Of a DNA stretch of 37,939 nucleotides, positions 14,340 through 26,051 are shown in pieces. A program made the position numbers and the translations under genes. Source of the DNA: Candidatus Bathycorpusculum acetigenes. Lineage in GTDB: Archaea > Thermoproteota > Bathyarchaeia > Bathyarchaeales > Bathycorpusculaceae. The notes below the pieces were generated by a model. That model did no database searches. It saw nothing but the letters and a program-made list of their open reading frames with translations, and was not told where the DNA came from. Positions within the stretch are counted from its first letter, which is position 1. The number at the start of each line of letters is the position of its first letter. Location of the stretch: positions 1-37,939 of the forward strand of contig WQVG01000009.1 in NCBI GenBank assembly GCA_009781675.1, read 5' to 3'.

Positions 14340-15143
14340 TCATTGTGAGTTAAAGAATGACTCCAGTTTGGATGTTCCCGATTTTTTGAGCACCAACGCA
14401 CAGTCTTTGGGGTCCAGAACTTTATACTCTAAACCTAACGTGACCAACAATCGCTGTACATCTTTACCAAGGCTGGGTGCTGCAAGAACGGCACGGACGG
14501 GACGATTAACTTTAGCCTTGATGGGTTCGATGTATTTTGAGAGCTGTAATGCTGCTTCTTTGGTAGCCGCTCTGCGCTTAACTTCGACGATAACAAGTCT
14601 GCCATCTTTATCTTCGCCATAGATATCTATGAAACCTGGTTCGACATGTTTTTCCCAGCTGATAGGTTTAAAACCTTCTTCAAACAGGCTGGGTTTGAGG
14701 AGTATTGCACGATGCATGTCGTCTTCGCTTGCATGTAACAGAAATTCACCAGCATCAAAAAGACTAAGGGCTGAGACCAGTAAAACTTCATTGAAAGTTA
14801 CTTTCACACGCTCATGGGGTTTGCTACGGATACCCTGTATTTCGAGTTTGTCATCGTTAACTTCGACAGTGAAAACGCCACCTGCAGGTTGCCAGTTGAC
14901 TGGTTCATACCCGGTTGGACGGTGAACAAGCAGGGACCCATCAGATTTGACGATGATAAAACGTTCGCCATTCTCAAGCGTCGAACTGGCTCTGCCGTCA
15001 TAGTGCACATGACAGTTACCTGCGACAAGAAGAGTATGGCGTTGCGCAAATGCTCTCTCGATTAAGACAGCTGCCTCAGCCAAGGTTGGTTCTTTTAACA
15101 CTGCAAGTTTGTTATTTTTGGTCTGCAAATTGTTTTCCGCCAA
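14340..15143 (-). CDS. nucS: NucS/EndoMS mismatch endonuclease
   Basis: NucS cuts both strands at mismatches and substitutes for MutS/MutL in many archaea and in actinobacteria. The N-terminal DNA-binding domain includes PVNWQP (81-86) with the conserved Trp84. The C-terminal RecB-like nuclease domain has Asp173 (FIDIYG), Glu187 and Lys189 (VEVKR) in the D-X13-E-X-K spacing of the family. The 267-aa length fits. The tail TSKLESFF, 9-10 residues from the end, resembles a PCNA-interacting (PIP) box with Thr in place of the first Gln. The start is TTG. It is divergent from the methyltransferase gene with only a short gap. Confidence 0.92.
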   Translation of the reverse strand: MAENNLQTKNNKLAVLKEPTLAEAAVLIERAFAQRHTLLVAGNCHVHYDGRASSTLENGERFIIVKSDGSLLVHRPTGYEPVNWQPAGGVFTVEVNDDKLEIQGIRSKPHERVKVTFNEVLLVSALSLFDAGEFLLHASEDDMHRAILLKPSLFEEGFKPISWEKHVEPGFIDIYGEDKDGRLVIVEVKRRAATKEAALQLSKYIEPIKAKVNRPVRAVLAAPSLGKDVQRLLVTLGLEYKVLDPKDCALVLKKSGTSKLESFFNSQ

Positions 15144-17275: not shown

Positions 17276-17896
17276 TTAATCTTGCTCTGATGAGGGTTCA
17301 GTTTGTTCTTCCTGTAATGGTTCTAAGGCACCTGCTTCCTGTTTTTCTGCTGATAACAACAGTTCGATGAGTTTCTTTTGGTCCACTTCGGCCTGTGTTC
17401 GCCAGTCCAAAAACAGCTGGCCGCCTTCGTCCTGTGTGAGGTAGCCGTGACGGATATAGCGATCGATGTTTAAACCTACTTTCCATCCAGGCATTTTTTC
17501 GCCCAGCAACTTTTCGACATCTTTACGGTTTGCTTGTCCTTTTTTGCTGATAATGTAGCTGATTGTGATAGCTAAACCTGCGAGGTCGTCTATGCGCCAT
17601 CCCATCAGCTTATCCTTGGAGGCAACATCTCGCAAAACAACAAAAAATCTAGCCTTGTCTAGTTGCTCAACTGTGGGTTTTTGGGGGGTTTTTTCTTCCT
17701 CAAATACGGTTTTAACTTCCATATCTAGCGGTTTTAGGTAATCATCTAAGACCTCGAGAACTTTGGGATAGTCGTTGCCCAGTGCTTTACGCAATTCCCA
17801 GCCTTTCACGCCAGGTTTTGCATGGCGTTTGTAGAAAAGTATCTGAGCGGCTCTCTTAGCTTTGCCTGTATAGAGGCTTTTTTTTCTTGTACTCAT
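17276..17896 (-). CDS. KITE-like tandem winged-helix partner of SMC
   Basis: I read this 206-aa protein as the third subunit of the SMC complex. Two winged-helix-like segments can be seen. One lies at about 20-65, where GVKGWELRKALGNDYPKVLE and the following DDYLKPLDMEVKTV have the ScpB-like pattern (short helix, linker helix, strand). The other lies at about 85-165, with LAGLAITISYIISKKGQANR, KDVEKLLG and IDRYIRHGYLTQ, a layout like MAGE/Nse3 or ScpB second domains. A charged Gln/Glu tail follows. Its ATG overlaps the kleisin-like stop (ATGA). No catalytic motif is present. The assignment rests on pattern and operon position, not on a search. Confidence 0.55.
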   Translation of the reverse strand: MSTRKKSLYTGKAKRAAQILFYKRHAKPGVKGWELRKALGNDYPKVLEVLDDYLKPLDMEVKTVFEEEKTPQKPTVEQLDKARFFVVLRDVASKDKLMGWRIDDLAGLAITISYIISKKGQANRKDVEKLLGEKMPGWKVGLNIDRYIRHGYLTQDEGGQLFLDWRTQAEVDQKKLIELLLSAEKQEAGALEPLQEEQTEPSSEQD

Positions 17897-18720
17897 GGTT
17901 GTCTACCTTCTTTCCATTTCTGCCAGTCTTCACAGGACACTACGATTGGGATCGAGGTGGCCTGAATCGTTAAAGCTTCTTCTCGGGGTACCGCATGGGG
18001 CACCACAAAAATGGTTTCTTCCAAGCGATCAATCTCTAGTGAGGCATAACCGTAGGTTACCAGAAAACTTGTAAGAAATGCTCGTTGTACAGTTTCTTCG
18101 TAGGTATCGGCTCCTATGAAGTCCCAGTAGCTGATTTTTCCATCTGAGTCTTCTTCTTTGGCTTTGAGTTTGAGTTCCTGCCAACAGTCGTCAAGTTCTT
18201 TGCTGAATTCCTTGTTGCTTAGTACCCGTTGTTTGACCATTTCATCATGACTCACCGAACCGATTTCAACTGTGTTAACGTCTATATTTCGCCAGCGCGT
18301 TTCCATGGGCTCCAGTGCATCCCAGTAAAGCAACCCCTGGGCAAGATTGTGGATGCTTAGTTGTTCGAATTCGACCAGTGGTGCCCATACGGATGCAAAT
18401 ACTTGAACCATACTCTCCTTACTGGTCTGACGTATTTTCTCCTCCAAAAGGAACGGATCGGTGTAGAGTGAAGTGGAGCGTTGTTTAACCCATTCGCTTT
18501 GTATTTTGATGACCGAGGCAAGGTGATGGAGGGCTTCAGCGTCTAGTTGGAGTTCGTCTGGATGTTTCCAATGGGGAAAATATTGCTTCACTACTGCAAT
18601 GATGTCATCGATGTTTAGAGTGAAGGGATCAACCTGATGGTTTTCTATGGCAGTACACATTTCAATAATGTATTCGAGACGTTCTTTACCAAGTTTCTTA
18701 TCGTGCTTGCCTACGCTCAT
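17893..18720 (-). CDS. Kleisin-like subunit (ScpA-like layout)
   Basis: This 275-aa protein lies between the SMC ATPase and the KITE-like gene. Residues 11-90 follow the ScpA N-terminal layout: a helix (LEYIIEMCTAIENHQVDPFT), an NIDDIIAVVKQYF segment, and a helix LDAEALHHLASVIKIQSEW, as in the kleisin part that binds an SMC neck. Residues 196-240 (ISYWDFIGADTYEETVQ, FLTSFLVTYGYASLEI, ETIFVV) resemble the C-terminal winged helix of kleisins that binds the opposite SMC head. The middle is less conserved and could bind KITE subunits. Start and stop overlap both neighbours by ATGA. A structural prediction would be decisive. Confidence 0.6.
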   Translation of the reverse strand: MSVGKHDKKLGKERLEYIIEMCTAIENHQVDPFTLNIDDIIAVVKQYFPHWKHPDELQLDAEALHHLASVIKIQSEWVKQRSTSLYTDPFLLEEKIRQTSKESMVQVFASVWAPLVEFEQLSIHNLAQGLLYWDALEPMETRWRNIDVNTVEIGSVSHDEMVKQRVLSNKEFSKELDDCWQELKLKAKEEDSDGKISYWDFIGADTYEETVQRAFLTSFLVTYGYASLEIDRLEETIFVVPHAVPREEALTIQATSIPIVVSCEDWQKWKEGRQP

Positions 18721-20636
18721 TTGACAACTTCTCGCACAAGTGATTTGCCTTCAAGGCTCTGAACGGTGATGACATTAGCGTCCTGTTGGGCAAAAGTGAT
18801 TTGGCTGGGTGTGATAACAACATATTGAGATGTCGCATCTTTTATCAAGGCGACCAGCACCTTGGCGATCATTTCACGGTTTTTGGGATCCATATGGATG
18901 TCGTATTCATCAACGGCACGAAAGGGAGAGCGGACATGCTGTTGCAATGCTAATAAAAAGCCCATGGTAGCGGTTGTGCGTTCACCGCCGCTTTGTGTAT
19001 AAGCATTGAGTGTAACGGGTTTGCTACCTTTGAAGCCCACATAGATTTCTAAGCCAGCAGTTGTGATGTCTTGGGGGTTGGAAAGTTGAATTTCGCCTGT
19101 CGCTAAGGTTTGGTTCATAATGCGTTGATACTCCAAGTTGACACGGCCTAGTAACTGCTCCATAACAGTGCGCCAAGCAGTCATACGAACCTGGACTTCT
19201 TCAAGGGTTTTCTCACGGTTTTCAGCGACAAGCTGGGCTTTTTCTTTGAGTTCAAAGTAGAGTTTTGAGTAGGATTCGTATTGCCGCTCGATCTCCTCTG
19301 AGACCCCTGAGAGTGCAACTAGATGCCCATCAGTTAACCCCATTTCCTCTTGGATTTCGCCTGCGGATTTAGCCACTGCAATACGTTCGCCTGATTCTTG
19401 GGCTTTTTCAAGGGCGGTATTGAGGTTTTCTTGAGCGTCTTTGAGTGATTTTTCGATATTTTCCTGTTCTTTGACCGCGCGTTCTCGCTTGAATTCCAAA
19501 AGAGCGAGGGTAACGCGTTTATCAAGTGCCCGGATGGCGATCTTGTTAGTGGATTCTTCGAGGCGTTGCATTATGGTTTGGTTAGCAACGATTTGTTTAG
19601 CGGCTTTCTCTATCTGTTGTTGGGATACTTCAAGCAGTCCTCTTAGTTGCTCAGGATGAAGGAGCGTAAATTGGCTTATGTCTATGACTGATTGGAGGTG
19701 TTCTGCTTCAGAGAGCAACTGTTCTACAAGGGAAAGCTTAGACTGGTTTTGAGCGACTGTCCGTTCCAAACCCAGACGTTCTTCAAACATGAGTTTGGTT
19801 TCATCTTTAAGTGTCTGCTGTTCGATACTCTGTCCATCCAGTTCACTGATGATAACTTGACGTTCGCCTTCGATTCTTCCCAATACCTGCTGAGTACGGT
19901 TAAAATTGGCCTGTAAAGTCTTCACGACGTCTTCTCTGCGTGCGATTTCGGCCCAAATTAATTCACGATCCAAAAATCGCCTTTTGAGTTGAAGTTGTTT
20001 TTTTTCTTGGAATTTTTCGTATTGCTCACGCCAGTAGTTGAGGGTCTGTTCGGCCTGTTCAAGCAATTTACCCACCGATTCTTCTTGTGTCAAGATACGG
20101 GAAAGTTTGGTTTTAGCGGCAACTACATTTTCGCGAAAAGGCTCCAAGCCTACGGCTTCTTCAACCATGCGTAGCTTGTCTATGTTGCTTAGCACACTAA
20201 ACTGTTCAACCATATTTTGGTGCATGATAATGAGCATGTTGTCGGGATCCACACCGAATTTTCCCAAAAGGCGTTCCACATTTTGTTTTGAAGCGGCATG
20301 ATTTTCGAGTTCAAACCAATATTTGCCGTCACGACGCAGAATCCGTGTTAAGAAAAGCTGGTCTTTATTGAATTTGGGTTCTGGGCGCCGGTCGCCTTGT
20401 TTTGCGTTATCTAAGATTAGGGTGACACGTGCTTGATCTTGTCCCCATCGGATGAGATCGCTGAGTTTACGGCTACGTTCCGTGCTGGTCTGGCCCAAAC
20501 CTACGCTTATGGCAAGCAGAAGGGAGGATTTGCCTGCACCGTTTGGGCCGCCGATTACGTTAACACCCTGTTTGAATGGCACTCGGGCGTATTCGTAACT
20601 CATAAAGTTTTCAACAATAAGTTCTCGGATTAACAC
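18717..20636 (-). CDS. Compact SMC-family ATPase, Smc5/6-like
   Basis: This 639-aa ABC-type SMC protein starts at a GTG with GAGG nine bases upstream. The N-terminal head has ENFMSYEYA (9-17), Walker A GPNGAGKSS (30-38), KLSDLIRWG (57-65) and the Q-loop region MHQNMVEQF (138-146). Long helical, Glu/Gln/Lys-rich segments run over about 175-315 and 335-505. The C-terminal head has the signature QSGGER (548-553), Walker B PFRAVDEYDIHMDPKNRE (571-588) and SQYVVITP (603-610). The last two closely resemble eukaryotic Smc5/Smc6, rather than bacterial Smc. Eukaryotic members exceed 1000 aa. Here the arms are about 140-170 residues and no globular hinge is evident. A role in chromosome organisation or repair is inferred. 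Confidence 0.8.
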   Translation of the reverse strand: MLIRELIVENFMSYEYARVPFKQGVNVIGGPNGAGKSSLLLAISVGLGQTSTERSRKLSDLIRWGQDQARVTLILDNAKQGDRRPEPKFNKDQLFLTRILRRDGKYWFELENHAASKQNVERLLGKFGVDPDNMLIIMHQNMVEQFSVLSNIDKLRMVEEAVGLEPFRENVVAAKTKLSRILTQEESVGKLLEQAEQTLNYWREQYEKFQEKKQLQLKRRFLDRELIWAEIARREDVVKTLQANFNRTQQVLGRIEGERQVIISELDGQSIEQQTLKDETKLMFEERLGLERTVAQNQSKLSLVEQLLSEAEHLQSVIDISQFTLLHPEQLRGLLEVSQQQIEKAAKQIVANQTIMQRLEESTNKIAIRALDKRVTLALLEFKRERAVKEQENIEKSLKDAQENLNTALEKAQESGERIAVAKSAGEIQEEMGLTDGHLVALSGVSEEIERQYESYSKLYFELKEKAQLVAENREKTLEEVQVRMTAWRTVMEQLLGRVNLEYQRIMNQTLATGEIQLSNPQDITTAGLEIYVGFKGSKPVTLNAYTQSGGERTTATMGFLLALQQHVRSPFRAVDEYDIHMDPKNREMIAKVLVALIKDATSQYVVITPSQITFAQQDANVITVQSLEGKSLVREVVK

Positions 20637-21915: not shown

Positions 21916-22218
21916 TTATTGTTCGATTAGTTTGAGAATATCGCTGTCCCCTGTTTCGCGTATGCTCAGCGCAGAGATAATGAAGAGTTTACTACAGACT
22001 TCAGCGAGATCCATTGAGCCACCTTTGTAGGTTATCACGGGAACTTTTGAGATTTCTCCATAGTATTCGATCTGTTCTTTTATGTCTTTTGGACAGTTTG
22101 CGGCTAAAACAATCATTTTAGCTTTTCCGGTTTTTGCGTTTTGCAATGCTGTGTTGGCTCCGAAGGATACTTTGCCGGTTTTCACTGCTGATGCTAACGC
22201 TTTATCTATGTCTATCAT
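21916..22218 (-). CDS. rpl30e: Ribosomal protein L30e
   Basis: This 100-aa protein matches the L7Ae/L30e family: GKVSFGANTALQNAKTGKAK near residues 16-35, VLAANCPKDI, PVITYKGGSMDLAEVC, then SALSIRETGDSDIL at the end. It is a component of the large ribosomal subunit. The gene lies between rpoA and nusA, its conserved place in archaea. Its ATG overlaps the rpoA TGA (ATGA), indicating translational coupling. Confidence 0.93.
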   Translation of the reverse strand: MIDIDKALASAVKTGKVSFGANTALQNAKTGKAKMIVLAANCPKDIKEQIEYYGEISKVPVITYKGGSMDLAEVCSKLFIISALSIRETGDSDILKLIEQ

Positions 22219-25200
22219 GCTTCTGTTTTTCCTCCATCTTTACTTTGACATTCGAAAGTTGACATGTAAAGTTCAACTAAACCTGTGCCGATTGGTATAG
22301 ACTGCCCAACTATAACGTTTTCTGTCACGCCAGCTAAAGGATCACTTTCACCTTTAACAGCTGCTTCAACGATGTTAGGAACAGTGATTTCAAATGCGGC
22401 GCGGGCTAGCACACTGGCTTTTTTGCCACTGATACCGTGTCTGCCAATCTGCTGCACATCTCCAGTGGTAGTCATCATATCTGCGACAAGCATAACATGC
22501 CGGACGTCGACATCTAAGCCTTGATCTTCCAAGACACCCTTAGCTTCGTTAACCAATGCGTTTCTTGATGCTTCGACGCCTAATGTTTTGGCGATTTCAT
22601 GAATATTGTTGGTTGATGTACGGGATGTATCGACACCTTCGACTTCGAGCACTTTACCAAGGTTTGAACCGTCAGTACGAATAACCCATTCGCCGCTTTC
22701 TTCAGTGACTAGTACACGTTTGATATCTGGAACGCCTTTAACTTGGAAATCGGGCACTTTGGTAAGCATACGTTTGATTTGCTCAGCTTTTTTAGGCTTG
22801 ATTTCGACGGTGTTATCGGTGATTGTTACAGTGGCATTTTGGAGTTCAAGTTTTTCTTTGAGTTCGTCCATACTAATGTTGCGGTCATCCATCATCTGCT
22901 TGTTGAGTTCGATGATGATTTCTTCGCGGACAGGGTCTTCATAGATTGCGGATGCTAAGTTTTCCACTGAAGTGTATATGATGTTACGTGCGACTTCAAC
23001 TGCAGCTTCTTTGCTTTTAGCGTGGTCGCCTGTGAGGTAGATGGTCATGATTGGTGTAGAGGGGATTCGGCGGGCGTCTACGATTTCTATGAGACGCGGC
23101 AAACCTAAGGTGACGTTTTGTTCTTTGACACCGGCATAGTGGAAGGTTCTAAGGGTCATCTGTGTACCAGGTTCACCGATTGATTGCGCTGCAACAATAC
23201 CAACTGCTTCACCGGGCTCCATCAAGGCGCGTTTGTACTGTTGCGCCGTGGCGGTTACAGCTTTCTCCACACCCTTAGTGGTGAGCTTGTTCTTGGCAAA
23301 GTTTTGTTTAAGCTGGTTTAACAGAATCGGGGTAATCTGAGTTTCAACTGTTTTGAGTTGCTTCTTGATGAAATCAGCTGAAGCTGGGTCGCCTTTTTCT
23401 TCGCCGAGTTTAACCTGCTCTATTAAACGGCTAACGTTTACAGCTTTACCGTGGTCGCTCTTAGCTGGATCCACACCATCCTCTCCGTAGCGGAACTGGA
23501 TGATGTCACCTGCGCTGTCACGAACGGTACTGTCGTATTCCAGTCGGATATGTTCTAAAGCGTTAATGAGCCTGCGTTGCATGTAGCCGCTTTGCTGTGT
23601 ACGAACGGCTGTGTCAACTAGACCTTCTCGGCCACCCATAGCGTGGAAGAAGAACTCGATTGCATCTAGACCTGTTTGGTAGCTGTTGTAGACAAAACCC
23701 CTTGCTCTTGGTCGGGGGTCGTTGGGTGTAAAGTGAGGAAGGGCACGACCAGCATAACCTCTTAGGATACGTTTTCCACGAACTGACTGCTGACCAACAC
23801 AAGCAACCATTTGCCCGATGTTGAGACTGCTACCCCTTGCACCAGTACGGGTCATAACGATACCTGCATTTTCTAGGGTGAAGTCGTCGTCTGCAATCTT
23901 ACCGGATTCGTCTCGAGCAGTGGAGAGTTCATGCATGACATAGATTTCGAATGATTCCTCAAGTGTTTGACCAGGAAGACGTGGGAGGGTCCCGTTTTGG
24001 TAGTTAGCAATATGTTCGTCGATTTTTTTCTGAGTACGCTCCATGATTTTTGCCATACGATTTCGTGCGCGGGTTGAGAGGACGAGCTGCTCGTAAGTGT
24101 AGCTGAAACCTCTCAGCGATATGAAGAGTTTAAGCATGTGAGTAATATTGTTGAGGAATTCGCGTCCGGCTTGTGTACCATAGTCTTTGATGATTCGGTG
24201 GAATAAACTCTCAGACTGTTCAGAGCCGATACTACGACGGTCAATGATACCGGAGACGAGCTGCCCATTTTTGACGACAACATAGGCGTCGTATTTGCAT
24301 TCAGTCTCTTCACACTTTGTACATCCCTGGCAGATGTTAGCTTTGAGCACATAGTTGAGTGTTTTTGGTAGGAACAAACTGAAAATTTGTTTGCCTGACC
24401 AGAGAGGCTGGGGTTCGGTGATTTCTGGTTCGGGCAAGTCACCTTGGTAGTTGGTAGTAGTTAAGATGCGGTCGATTTGCCCACGGGTTAGATAGTTGCC
24501 TTTTTTTGTGAAGTAGTAAGCACTTGTGATGAAGTCACGGATGGCACCGATGATGGGTCCTCCGAATCTGGGTGAGAGAATCTGGTCTTGGACTTGCATG
24601 AGCAGAAGTGATTCGGTTCTGGCTTCCTCGCTTTGGGGAACGTGGAGGTTCATTTCGTCGCCGTCGAAGTCTGCGTTGTAGGGTGGACAGACACAGAGGT
24701 GCATTCTGAAAGTTTTGTATGGAAGAACACGGGCGTAGTGAGCCATTATAGACATGCGGTGGAGTGAGGGCTGTCGGTTAAAGATAGCTATGTCGCCGTT
24801 TTTGAGGTGCCGCTCTACGATGAAGCCCAATTCGACGGCTTCAGCTATTTTTGTGCGATCCACGACGAATTCAAGTCGAATACGTTTACCGTCAGGACGG
24901 ATGATGTAGAGCGCTCCGGGATATTGCTCGGGGCCGTTTACAACCAGTTTCTTCATTTCTTCGATATTCCAGGCGGTAACTTTTTCTGGAACACTGAGCC
25001 TCATGGCAACGTCTATTGGGACACCGACTTCATTTATGTCAAGGTTAGGGTCTGGAGAAATGACTGTACGCGCGGAGAAGTCAACACGTTTACCGGAGAG
25101 ATTGCTTCGGAAACGGCCCTCTTTACCTTTGAGACGCTGACTGAGGGTTTTTAGCGCTCTGCCGCTACGGTGACGTGCGGGCGGTATACCTGAGGCTTCG

Positions 25201-26051
25201 TTGTTGAAGTAGGTGGTAACATGGTACTGAAGCAACTCACTGAGGTCTTGGATGATTAAGGTTGGAGCGCCTGCCTCCATGTTTTCCTTCAACCGTTGGT
25301 TAATACGGATAATGTCGACGAGTTTGTGTGTTAAGTCATCTTCACTGCGTATACCTGACTCCAAAGTGATTGAGGGACGCACATACACGGGCGGAACGGG
25401 CAGAACTTGGAGAACCATCCATTCGGGACGGGCAACTTTGGGGTTGAAACCCAAGATTTCAAGGTCTTCGTCACTAATGCGTTCAAGCCTTTCCCGAATC
25501 ATGCTAGGAGTGAGGGGTTCAGACCCTAACTCGGTCTGTTCGATGAATTTAGTTGGTTTTTCGAAAGTGATTTTGTACTGTGTTGCTGCACAATAGGGGC
25601 ATTGTTTGACTTTTATGTCGGTCATGATTTCCTTGTAGACTTCGTCAGGGATAGTTCCTAGAAGTGCGTTGAAGTGCTCGATACGCTGGCGAGCTTTTTT
25701 GGATGCTTCCTCGCTTAGGAGTATGCGACCACAGGTACGACAGGTAGATTTGAGCATATCAAAGATAATTTTGGTGAATTCAATGTGTACAATGGGAACC
25801 GCAAGTTCGATATGGCCGAAGTGACCAGGACAACGGATTGCAGTGTTACCACATGTTTTGCATCGCTGTCGAGGTTCAAGGGTACCGAGCCGCCCATCCA
25901 TTAAACCGGCGGTAATGGGCGCACCATCTTCGTCATAGGTATCGGGGGTTTGAATTTCAACGACAGATTGTTTTCGGAGGTCTTTGGGCGAGATTAGACC
26001 AAATGAGATTTCATCTACTACTTTATGGATTAATTCTTCCGTTTGTGCCAT
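22215..26051 (-). CDS. rpoA: DNA-directed RNA polymerase subunit A, unsplit (A' and A'')
   Basis: This 1278-aa chain contains the whole of the eukaryotic Rpb1-like core. The N-terminal zinc-binding region has CKTCGNTAIRCPGHFGHIEL and a second CRTCG cluster. The catalytic NADFDGDEMN, with its three Mg-binding aspartates, lies near 458-467. The sequence continues through the bridge-helix region (HAMGGREGLVDTAVRTQQSG) and on to EPGEAVGIVAAQSIGEPGTQ near 943. In most archaea the last 390 residues are a separate A'' gene; here there is no break. An unsplit subunit is known in Thaumarchaeota-like and Korarchaeota-like lineages. It begins one base after the rpoB stop. Confidence 0.95.
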   Translation of the reverse strand: MAQTEELIHKVVDEISFGLISPKDLRKQSVVEIQTPDTYDEDGAPITAGLMDGRLGTLEPRQRCKTCGNTAIRCPGHFGHIELAVPIVHIEFTKIIFDMLKSTCRTCGRILLSEEASKKARQRIEHFNALLGTIPDEVYKEIMTDIKVKQCPYCAATQYKITFEKPTKFIEQTELGSEPLTPSMIRERLERISDEDLEILGFNPKVARPEWMVLQVLPVPPVYVRPSITLESGIRSEDDLTHKLVDIIRINQRLKENMEAGAPTLIIQDLSELLQYHVTTYFNNEASGIPPARHRSGRALKTLSQRLKGKEGRFRSNLSGKRVDFSARTVISPDPNLDINEVGVPIDVAMRLSVPEKVTAWNIEEMKKLVVNGPEQYPGALYIIRPDGKRIRLEFVVDRTKIAEAVELGFIVERHLKNGDIAIFNRQPSLHRMSIMAHYARVLPYKTFRMHLCVCPPYNADFDGDEMNLHVPQSEEARTESLLLMQVQDQILSPRFGGPIIGAIRDFITSAYYFTKKGNYLTRGQIDRILTTTNYQGDLPEPEITEPQPLWSGKQIFSLFLPKTLNYVLKANICQGCTKCEETECKYDAYVVVKNGQLVSGIIDRRSIGSEQSESLFHRIIKDYGTQAGREFLNNITHMLKLFISLRGFSYTYEQLVLSTRARNRMAKIMERTQKKIDEHIANYQNGTLPRLPGQTLEESFEIYVMHELSTARDESGKIADDDFTLENAGIVMTRTGARGSSLNIGQMVACVGQQSVRGKRILRGYAGRALPHFTPNDPRPRARGFVYNSYQTGLDAIEFFFHAMGGREGLVDTAVRTQQSGYMQRRLINALEHIRLEYDSTVRDSAGDIIQFRYGEDGVDPAKSDHGKAVNVSRLIEQVKLGEEKGDPASADFIKKQLKTVETQITPILLNQLKQNFAKNKLTTKGVEKAVTATAQQYKRALMEPGEAVGIVAAQSIGEPGTQMTLRTFHYAGVKEQNVTLGLPRLIEIVDARRIPSTPIMTIYLTGDHAKSKEAAVEVARNIIYTSVENLASAIYEDPVREEIIIELNKQMMDDRNISMDELKEKLELQNATVTITDNTVEIKPKKAEQIKRMLTKVPDFQVKGVPDIKRVLVTEESGEWVIRTDGSNLGKVLEVEGVDTSRTSTNNIHEIAKTLGVEASRNALVNEAKGVLEDQGLDVDVRHVMLVADMMTTTGDVQQIGRHGISGKKASVLARAAFEITVPNIVEAAVKGESDPLAGVTENVIVGQSIPIGTGLVELYMSTFECQSKDGGKTEA

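Follow-up and report, generated by a model that had tools for sequence, protein, structure and literature searches.

Does a simple relative of the eukaryotic Smc5/6 complex exist outside eukaryotes, and what would it be made of? The question is raised by three adjoining genes in a 37,939-nucleotide stretch of DNA from the archaeon Candidatus Bathycorpusculum acetigenes (contig WQVG01000009.1), hereafter the window, which an initial annotation had read as a complete, minimal Smc5/6-type machine. We consider it likely that these genes encode a minimal, probably homodimeric Smc5/6-type SMC–kleisin–KITE complex that would work as a short-armed ATP-gated clamp. The complex is a reduced Smc5/6 relative, with one SMC, one KITE without a RING and apparently no hinge. 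The Smc5/6-type part of the earlier description is supported for heads, kleisin and KITE alike, while "complete" goes too far. Open reading frame (ORF) analysis of the window gives three minus-strand genes for a mini-SMC, a kleisin and a KITE (639, 275 and 206 amino acids), joined by the two ATGA overlaps already described in the annotation:

18717..20636, minus strand: mini-SMC ATPase gene with Smc5/6-type heads (639 aa, GTG start; SMC_N, Protein Data Bank (PDB) matches, tree)
17893..18720, minus strand: Nse4-type kleisin gene (275 aa; Pfam Nse4_C; fold match to yeast Nse4 in 7qcd_F and 7tve_G)
17276..17896, minus strand: KITE gene, tandem winged helices (206 aa; AlphaFold2 model; fold matches to Nse1/Nse3/MAGE and JetB)
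18717..18720, minus strand: ATGA overlap of SMC and kleisin genes, 4 nt (ORF coordinates)
17893..17896, minus strand: ATGA overlap of kleisin and KITE genes, 4 nt (ORF coordinates)

The GTG start of the mini-SMC is supported by its N-terminus, MLIxEVILENFMSYEY, which is conserved family-wide in an alignment of 52 homologues. The closest named locus belongs to Candidatus Bathycorpusculum termitum (SMC identity 88%), and the assembly containing the window is 2.14 Mb and 95% complete.

The three subunits

The mini-SMC matches Pfam SMC_N (1.5e-33), and among PDB chains its sequence comes closest to yeast Smc5 (2.7e-29) and Smc6 (7.8e-27), with condensin and bacterial Smc heads ranking behind. The motifs quoted earlier for their likeness to Smc5/Smc6 are present in the protein (PFRAVDEYDIHMDPKNRE at residues 571-588; SQYVVITP ending at residue 610). 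The residues of Walker A, the Q-loop, SGGER and Walker B/D-loop are invariant in 52 diverse homologues with identities down to approximately 33%, so that, judged by its sequence, the mini-SMC should be an active ATPase. The head motifs lie as follows:

20526..20549, minus strand: Walker A, GPNGAGKS, residues 30-37 (invariant in homologue alignment)
18978..18992, minus strand: ABC signature, SGGER, residues 549-553 (invariant in homologue alignment)
18873..18920, minus strand: Walker B/D-loop, RAVDEYDIHMDPKNRE, residues 573-588, Smc5/6-like (alignments)
18807..18827, minus strand: QYVVITP, residues 604-610, with Smc5/6-like ITP replacing ITH (alignments)

A head tree was computed from the N- and C-terminal head segments (47 sequences, 325 positions, LG+G4+F). 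It comprised 23 mini-SMCs, canonical Thermoproteota SMCs, Rad50-like proteins, human and yeast SMC5/SMC6, human SMC2 and SMC3, and B. subtilis Smc, without MukB, JetC or RecN. The yeast sequences were taken from PDB alignments. The human SMC5 and SMC3 sequences are identical residue for residue to PDB chains in the alignments shown, human SMC6 was corrected from its PDB alignment, and human SMC2 matches a PDB chain at 815 bits, with no alignment displayed; these comparisons with PDB chains covered the human sequences, the B. subtilis Smc sequence being used as entered. Mini-SMC, Smc5 and Smc6 form one clade, with a Shimodaira–Hasegawa-like approximate likelihood ratio test (SH-aLRT) value of 96.9 and an ultrafast bootstrap (UFBoot) value of 99, opposite a clade of canonical SMC, SMC2/3 and bacterial Smc (97.4/99). 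In approximately unbiased (AU) tests, placing the mini-SMC with canonical SMC was rejected (4e-33), as was placing Smc5/6 with SMC2/3 (3e-11); no branching order among mini-SMC, Smc5 and Smc6 is favoured. The head sequences support membership of the mini-SMC in the Smc5/Smc6 clade, apart from canonical SMC and Rad50, in line with the resemblance first noted. The placement also agrees with a published tree that groups archaeal "SMC5/6-related" SMCs together with SMC5 and SMC6 at 100% support (PMC9389158).

The same tree bears on the possibility that the ATPase is an SMC-like repair protein of the Rad50, RecN or ASRP type, accompanied by two unrelated neighbours. The protein is indeed short, and its SMC-superfamily matches include Rad50, RecF, RecN and ASRP. 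Yet grouping with Rad50 is rejected (AU, 0.028; RecN is absent from the tree), the middle region has no cysteine and hence no Zn hook, the ASRP model scores 47 bits against a cut-off of 300, and the neighbours are a kleisin and a KITE that strictly co-occur with it. The AU test and the co-occurrence largely refute this explanation, to which we assign a negligible likelihood.

The window kleisin matches Pfam Nse4_C at 9.6e-5, 3 bits below the cut-off, and is the sole Nse4_C match in its own genome. Nse4_C is matched by 62 of 68 Bathyarchaeal kleisins at E <= 1 (best 1.8e-6) and by 38 of 56 diverse kleisins at E <= 0.1 (best 5.6e-9), and the kleisin of one locus (L137) clears the 26-bit cut-off with 30.8 bits. 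ScpA is not among the Pfam families reported for these 68 and 56 kleisins. The AlphaFold2 model of the kleisin has a predicted local distance difference test score (pLDDT) of 75 and a predicted template modelling score (pTM) of 0.40; its N-terminal parts are helical and its C-terminal winged helix is confident:

18466..18720, minus strand: helical N-terminal part, residues 1-85, presumed neck-binding (AlphaFold2 model; role from the kleisin family)
17911..18120, minus strand: C-terminal winged-helix domain with the Nse4_C match, residues 201-270 (Pfam, AlphaFold2, fold search)

In the PDB fold search, yeast Nse4 ranks first (7qcd_F; E 3.6e-4, probability 1.00), followed in order by Nse4 in 7tve, condensin Brn1, ScpA-C and Scc1-C. 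Whole-chain template-modelling scores are low, and because the domain arrangement of the model is unreliable, we relied on the local match. Sequence and fold together support an Nse4-type kleisin. The kleisin relation implied by the "ScpA-like ends" of the annotation stands, by sequence specifically to Nse4, and the ends are better read as Nse4-like.

For the KITE, AlphaFold2 predicts two winged-helix domains (pLDDT 79, pTM 0.60):

17633..17890, minus strand: first winged-helix domain, residues 3-88 (AlphaFold2 model)
17408..17593, minus strand: second winged-helix domain, residues 102-163 (AlphaFold2 model; the register of the relatives' MAGE/Nse1 Pfam matches fits)

The fold search is headed by the KITE chains of the Nse1-Nse3-Nse4 complex 7dg2 (E 1.7e-5), MAGE-G1/NSE1 (5hvq), Wadjet JetB (8as8, 8dk1) and MAGEA4, with MukE and ScpB ranking lower. 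Single-sequence PDB and Pfam searches with the window KITE gave nothing useful; its kinship emerged solely from the fold search and from the set of diverse relatives. Among 51 diverse KITEs, Pfam MAGE is matched by 8 and SMC_Nse1 by 4 (best 2.8e-4 and 1.2e-4), in the C-terminal winged helix, and ScpB is absent from the Pfam families reported for 58 and 51 KITEs. A KITE search of the window's own genome returned one match and no second KITE. Since the window KITE contains no cysteine, it is without a RING. The evidence supports a tandem winged-helix KITE of the Nse1/Nse3 type, more weakly by sequence than by fold; of the ScpB/Nse3-like tandem winged helices proposed at the outset, the KITE fold is borne out, with Nse1, Nse3 and MAGE as top matches.

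These assignments also weigh on whether the operon is a variant of the bacterial-type Smc-ScpAB chromosome condensin. The subunit classes are alike (SMC, kleisin and KITE), and ScpB homologues are known in archaea (PMC7055376). However, the Pfam families reported for the partners include Nse4_C, MAGE and SMC_Nse1 and neither ScpA nor ScpB, the AU test excludes a grouping of the heads with canonical SMC, and the same genome encodes a separate full-length canonical SMC. We regard such a variant as highly improbable.

Arms, hinge and the putative clamp

Between the two halves of its head, the mini-SMC has a single long feature:

19218..20099, minus strand: coiled-coil hairpin, residues approximately 180-473, without recognisable hinge or Cys hook (length, composition, no PF06470 match)

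In 165 mini-SMC homologues, Walker A and the signature are 442-567 residues apart, and the stretch between the heads spans 217-337 aa, mostly helix-forming, in seven members. SMC_hinge (PF06470) matches no mini-SMC in 397 genomes; its matches are confined to other ORFs, mostly of approximately 1180 aa, among them a canonical SMC that the window's genome encodes on a different contig. Given that PF06470 misses some real hinges, the case for hinge absence is built mainly on length, which is an independent argument. Taken together, the sequences suggest that the mini-SMC is probably without the usual hinge.

An unrecognised mini-hinge at the apex of the coiled coil would instead allow the SMC to dimerise, form a normal tripartite ring and extrude loops. 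A hinge is present in all characterised SMC–kleisin complexes (PMC10512200, PMC10586767), some escape the Pfam model, and the window SMC has a short Pro-containing stretch near its apex. Against this, the heads of the shortest members are separated by only approximately 217-225 aa, which are largely helix-forming apart from a short break containing Gly, and the alignment is most variable, including in length, at the centre of the middle region. We therefore think a mini-hinge unlikely.

With no recognisable hinge, the usual large SMC ring probably cannot close, which makes a short ATP-gated clamp more likely than a long-range extruder. In such a clamp, two mini-SMC heads would sandwich ATP. 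By extension from related families (PMC10512200), the kleisin would bridge the two SMC subunits, its N-terminus touching the neck of one and its C-terminal winged helix capping the head of the other; a KITE dimer seated on the middle of the kleisin would clamp duplex DNA atop the engaged heads, and ATP hydrolysis would open the clamp and release the DNA. Its most likely part in genome maintenance would then be that of a DNA clamp or junction sensor, short-armed and gated by ATP, as opposed to a long-range loop extruder. The least secure element of this proposal is the biological role, which by analogy with Smc5/6 may lie in repair or the handling of junctions.

Several points count against the Smc5/6-type clamp. 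The KITE matches to MAGE and SMC_Nse1 fall under the Pfam cut-offs. The structure predictions are of single chains, and the low kleisin pTM makes its domain arrangement unreliable. Some families have divergent full-length SMCs whose hinge PF06470 fails to recognise, so that a mini-hinge is possible. Loss of the operon in several genomes of the same genus shows that it is dispensable there, and the genome-maintenance role is proposed from homology. More tentatively, and in our view less likely than not, the operon may be a living relative of the Smc5/6 ancestor, whose SMC and KITE genes were later duplicated into Smc5 plus Smc6 and Nse1 plus Nse3, and the first hinge-less SMC–kleisin–KITE machine, clamping DNA without a closed ring.

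Distribution and genomic surroundings

Across 398 Thermoproteota genomes (SMC presence threshold, E <= 1e-20), the SMC was found in 158, the kleisin in 157 and the KITE in 157. Co-occurrence is near-perfect, with all three genes in 152 genomes and none in 235 (Fisher p < 1e-94 for each pair), and several of the exceptions are located on broken contigs. The same three-gene order recurs in approximately 160 loci of other genomes and is kept in most loci, which, together with the invariant ATPase motifs, puts the operon far beyond chance. In family f21, the kleisin–KITE pair is separate from the SMC, either on the opposite strand (L141) or on a different contig (G015), and both parts are retained. 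The genomic pattern supports a functional link between the three genes, which are inherited together even where unlinked.

The complex is missing from all 65 amoA-bearing genomes (ammonia oxidisers; f18, f47 and f50). In Bathyarchaeia it stands alongside a canonical SMC in 53 of 55 genomes, and seven checked genomes of f19, f23, f35, f37 and f64 yielded the mini-SMC but no full-length SMC. The absence of PF06470 from 81 non-Bathyarchaeal complex-holding genomes was considered as absence of canonical SMC; this reading was dropped because f24, f28, f39 and f40 have SMC ORFs of approximately 1130-1169 aa whose hinge is missed by the model. Full-length canonical SMCs of this kind (approximately 1130-1165 aa) were seen in f24, f28 and f39 (G009:C6, G017:C1, G078:C8).

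In the window, the operon is flanked on one side by a helix-turn-helix (HTH) protein, a methyltransferase-like ORF and NucS, and on the other by NusA/rpo genes. Of the 16 genomes sampled from the window's genus, seven have none of the three genes. In G094 and G142 the syntenic site is clean: immediately after NusA comes the HTH protein seen beside the operon in the window. The genes were therefore gained or lost together, as a single unit, at a position on the chromosome beside rpo/nusA. Such behaviour is in keeping with an accessory maintenance system and would suit defence as well.

The latter had been suggested by the initial annotation as plasmid or virus defence of a Wadjet-like kind. In such a JetABCD-like machine, the SMC–kleisin–KITE part would sense foreign circular DNA and recruit a nuclease. 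The clean cassette-like absence just described is compatible with this, the KITE fold matches to JetB come close behind those to Nse1/Nse3, and both eukaryotic Smc5/6 and Wadjet restrict extrachromosomal DNA (PMC10586767). However, PADLOC has no match for the kleisin or the KITE, and for the SMC it gives only generic ATPase matches, JetC being a weak SMC-superfamily match. No JetD-like gene was found in the window flanks or among recurrent neighbours, the operon ending at the KITE. It is a single copy adjoining rpo/nusA core genes, and its heads group with Smc5/6, in a tree without JetC and MukB. Viral contigs gave partial ATPase matches and no convincing homologue or operon, so that a mobile-element origin is not indicated. 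With no nuclease partner, PADLOC partner match or mobile-element copy found, the suggestion gains no positive support, and we judge it quite improbable.

Other genes were observed around the operon in the window and in relatives. An endonuclease NucS (14340-15143, minus strand; NCBIfam equivalog above cut-off) lies approximately 2 kb downstream, an association confined to a few close relatives, and RNA polymerase subunits A' and A'' are united in a single unsplit gene (1278 aa; 22215-26051, minus strand). A 230-aa protein without Pfam, NCBIfam or PDB match (L070:4127-4822, minus strand, and 43 further loci, e.g., L040, L133 and L151) conserves KLSLYGxxL...WYxV...TRxxxVTxF; at approximately 31 loci in several classes its gene is divergent and mostly within approximately 340 bp upstream of the mini-SMC. 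It was considered as a fourth subunit and rejected, as neither the window's genome nor four genomes of the same genus yielded it. Divergent beside the mini-SMC in five loci of one family (L139, L137, L163, L170 and L172) is a eukaryotic-type topoisomerase IB (PF01028, PF02919; L139:5962-7512, plus strand), and an Lhr-type helicase gene (L160:4002-6617, minus strand) lies convergent and just downstream of the KITE, with approximately 26 further loci, mostly non-Bathyarchaeal.

Comparison with known systems

The closest counterpart is the Smc5/6-Nse1-Nse3-Nse4 core. The SMC heads of both fall in one clade and have the PFRxxDE...MDxxNR and QYxxITP motifs in common, the archaeal kleisin is Nse4-type and the archaeal KITE is closest in fold to Nse1/Nse3. 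In contrast to the eukaryotic core, the archaeal system has one SMC gene and one KITE instead of two of each, its KITE is without a RING, and its SMC has no recognisable hinge and arms several times shorter. The window's genome has one Smc5/6-type SMC, along with distant canonical SMC and Rad50-like ORFs, and no paralogous SMC heterodimer pair. Neither the Nse2 SUMO ligase nor the Nse5/Nse6 loader is encoded in the operon, although no genome-wide search for them was made. We do not class the operon as a Smc5/6 complex because an SMC heterodimer and a second, RING-bearing KITE are missing.

An archaeal SMC5/6-related SMC gene type was reportedly described by Yoshinaga and Inagaki in 2021. The type is known as "SMC5/6-related" in a 2022 paper that cites this work, and by the tree description given there the mini-SMC is very probably a member (PMC9389158); kleisins are nowhere mentioned in that paper. 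Searches of the open literature, a coverage that excludes preprints and most subscription journals, found no report of archaeal Nse4- or Nse1/Nse3-like partners, of the operon or of a missing hinge.

Wadjet JetABC, MksBEF and MukBEF likewise combine a homodimer-type SMC, a kleisin and a KITE in one operon, and the archaeal KITE fold resembles JetB. Unlike these systems, the archaeal operon is without a JetD nuclease (Toprim), its kleisin is Nse4-like and its SMC is several hundred residues shorter, with no hinge found. Smc-ScpAB and archaeal Smc-ScpA also have an SMC bridged by a kleisin (PMC7055376), but the mini-SMC belongs to another SMC clade, and whereas archaeal ScpA is reported to function without a KITE (PMC7055376), the mini-SMC operon encodes one. 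ASRP, coalescin and Sph are, like the mini-SMC, short archaeal SMC-superfamily ATPases (PMC9389158); ASRPs mostly have a zinc hook (PMC9389158), whereas the mini-SMC lacks one, and its ASRP score is well short of the cut-off.

The SMC complexes reviewed as KITE-based are eukaryotic Smc5/6 and the bacterial-type Smc-ScpAB, MukBEF and Wadjet (PMC10512200), and those of archaea have been argued to be KITE-free (PMC7055376). A widespread archaeal operon whose partners resemble Nse4 and Nse1/Nse3 would place a relative of Smc5/6, partners included, among prokaryotes and open its origin to testing. Structural studies would gain a three-protein system that is small and possibly thermostable. With the hinge apparently lacking, DNA clamping would be set apart from ring closure and loop extrusion. 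Our data support the existence, outside eukaryotes, of a simple Smc5/6 relative that apparently does without the usual hinge.

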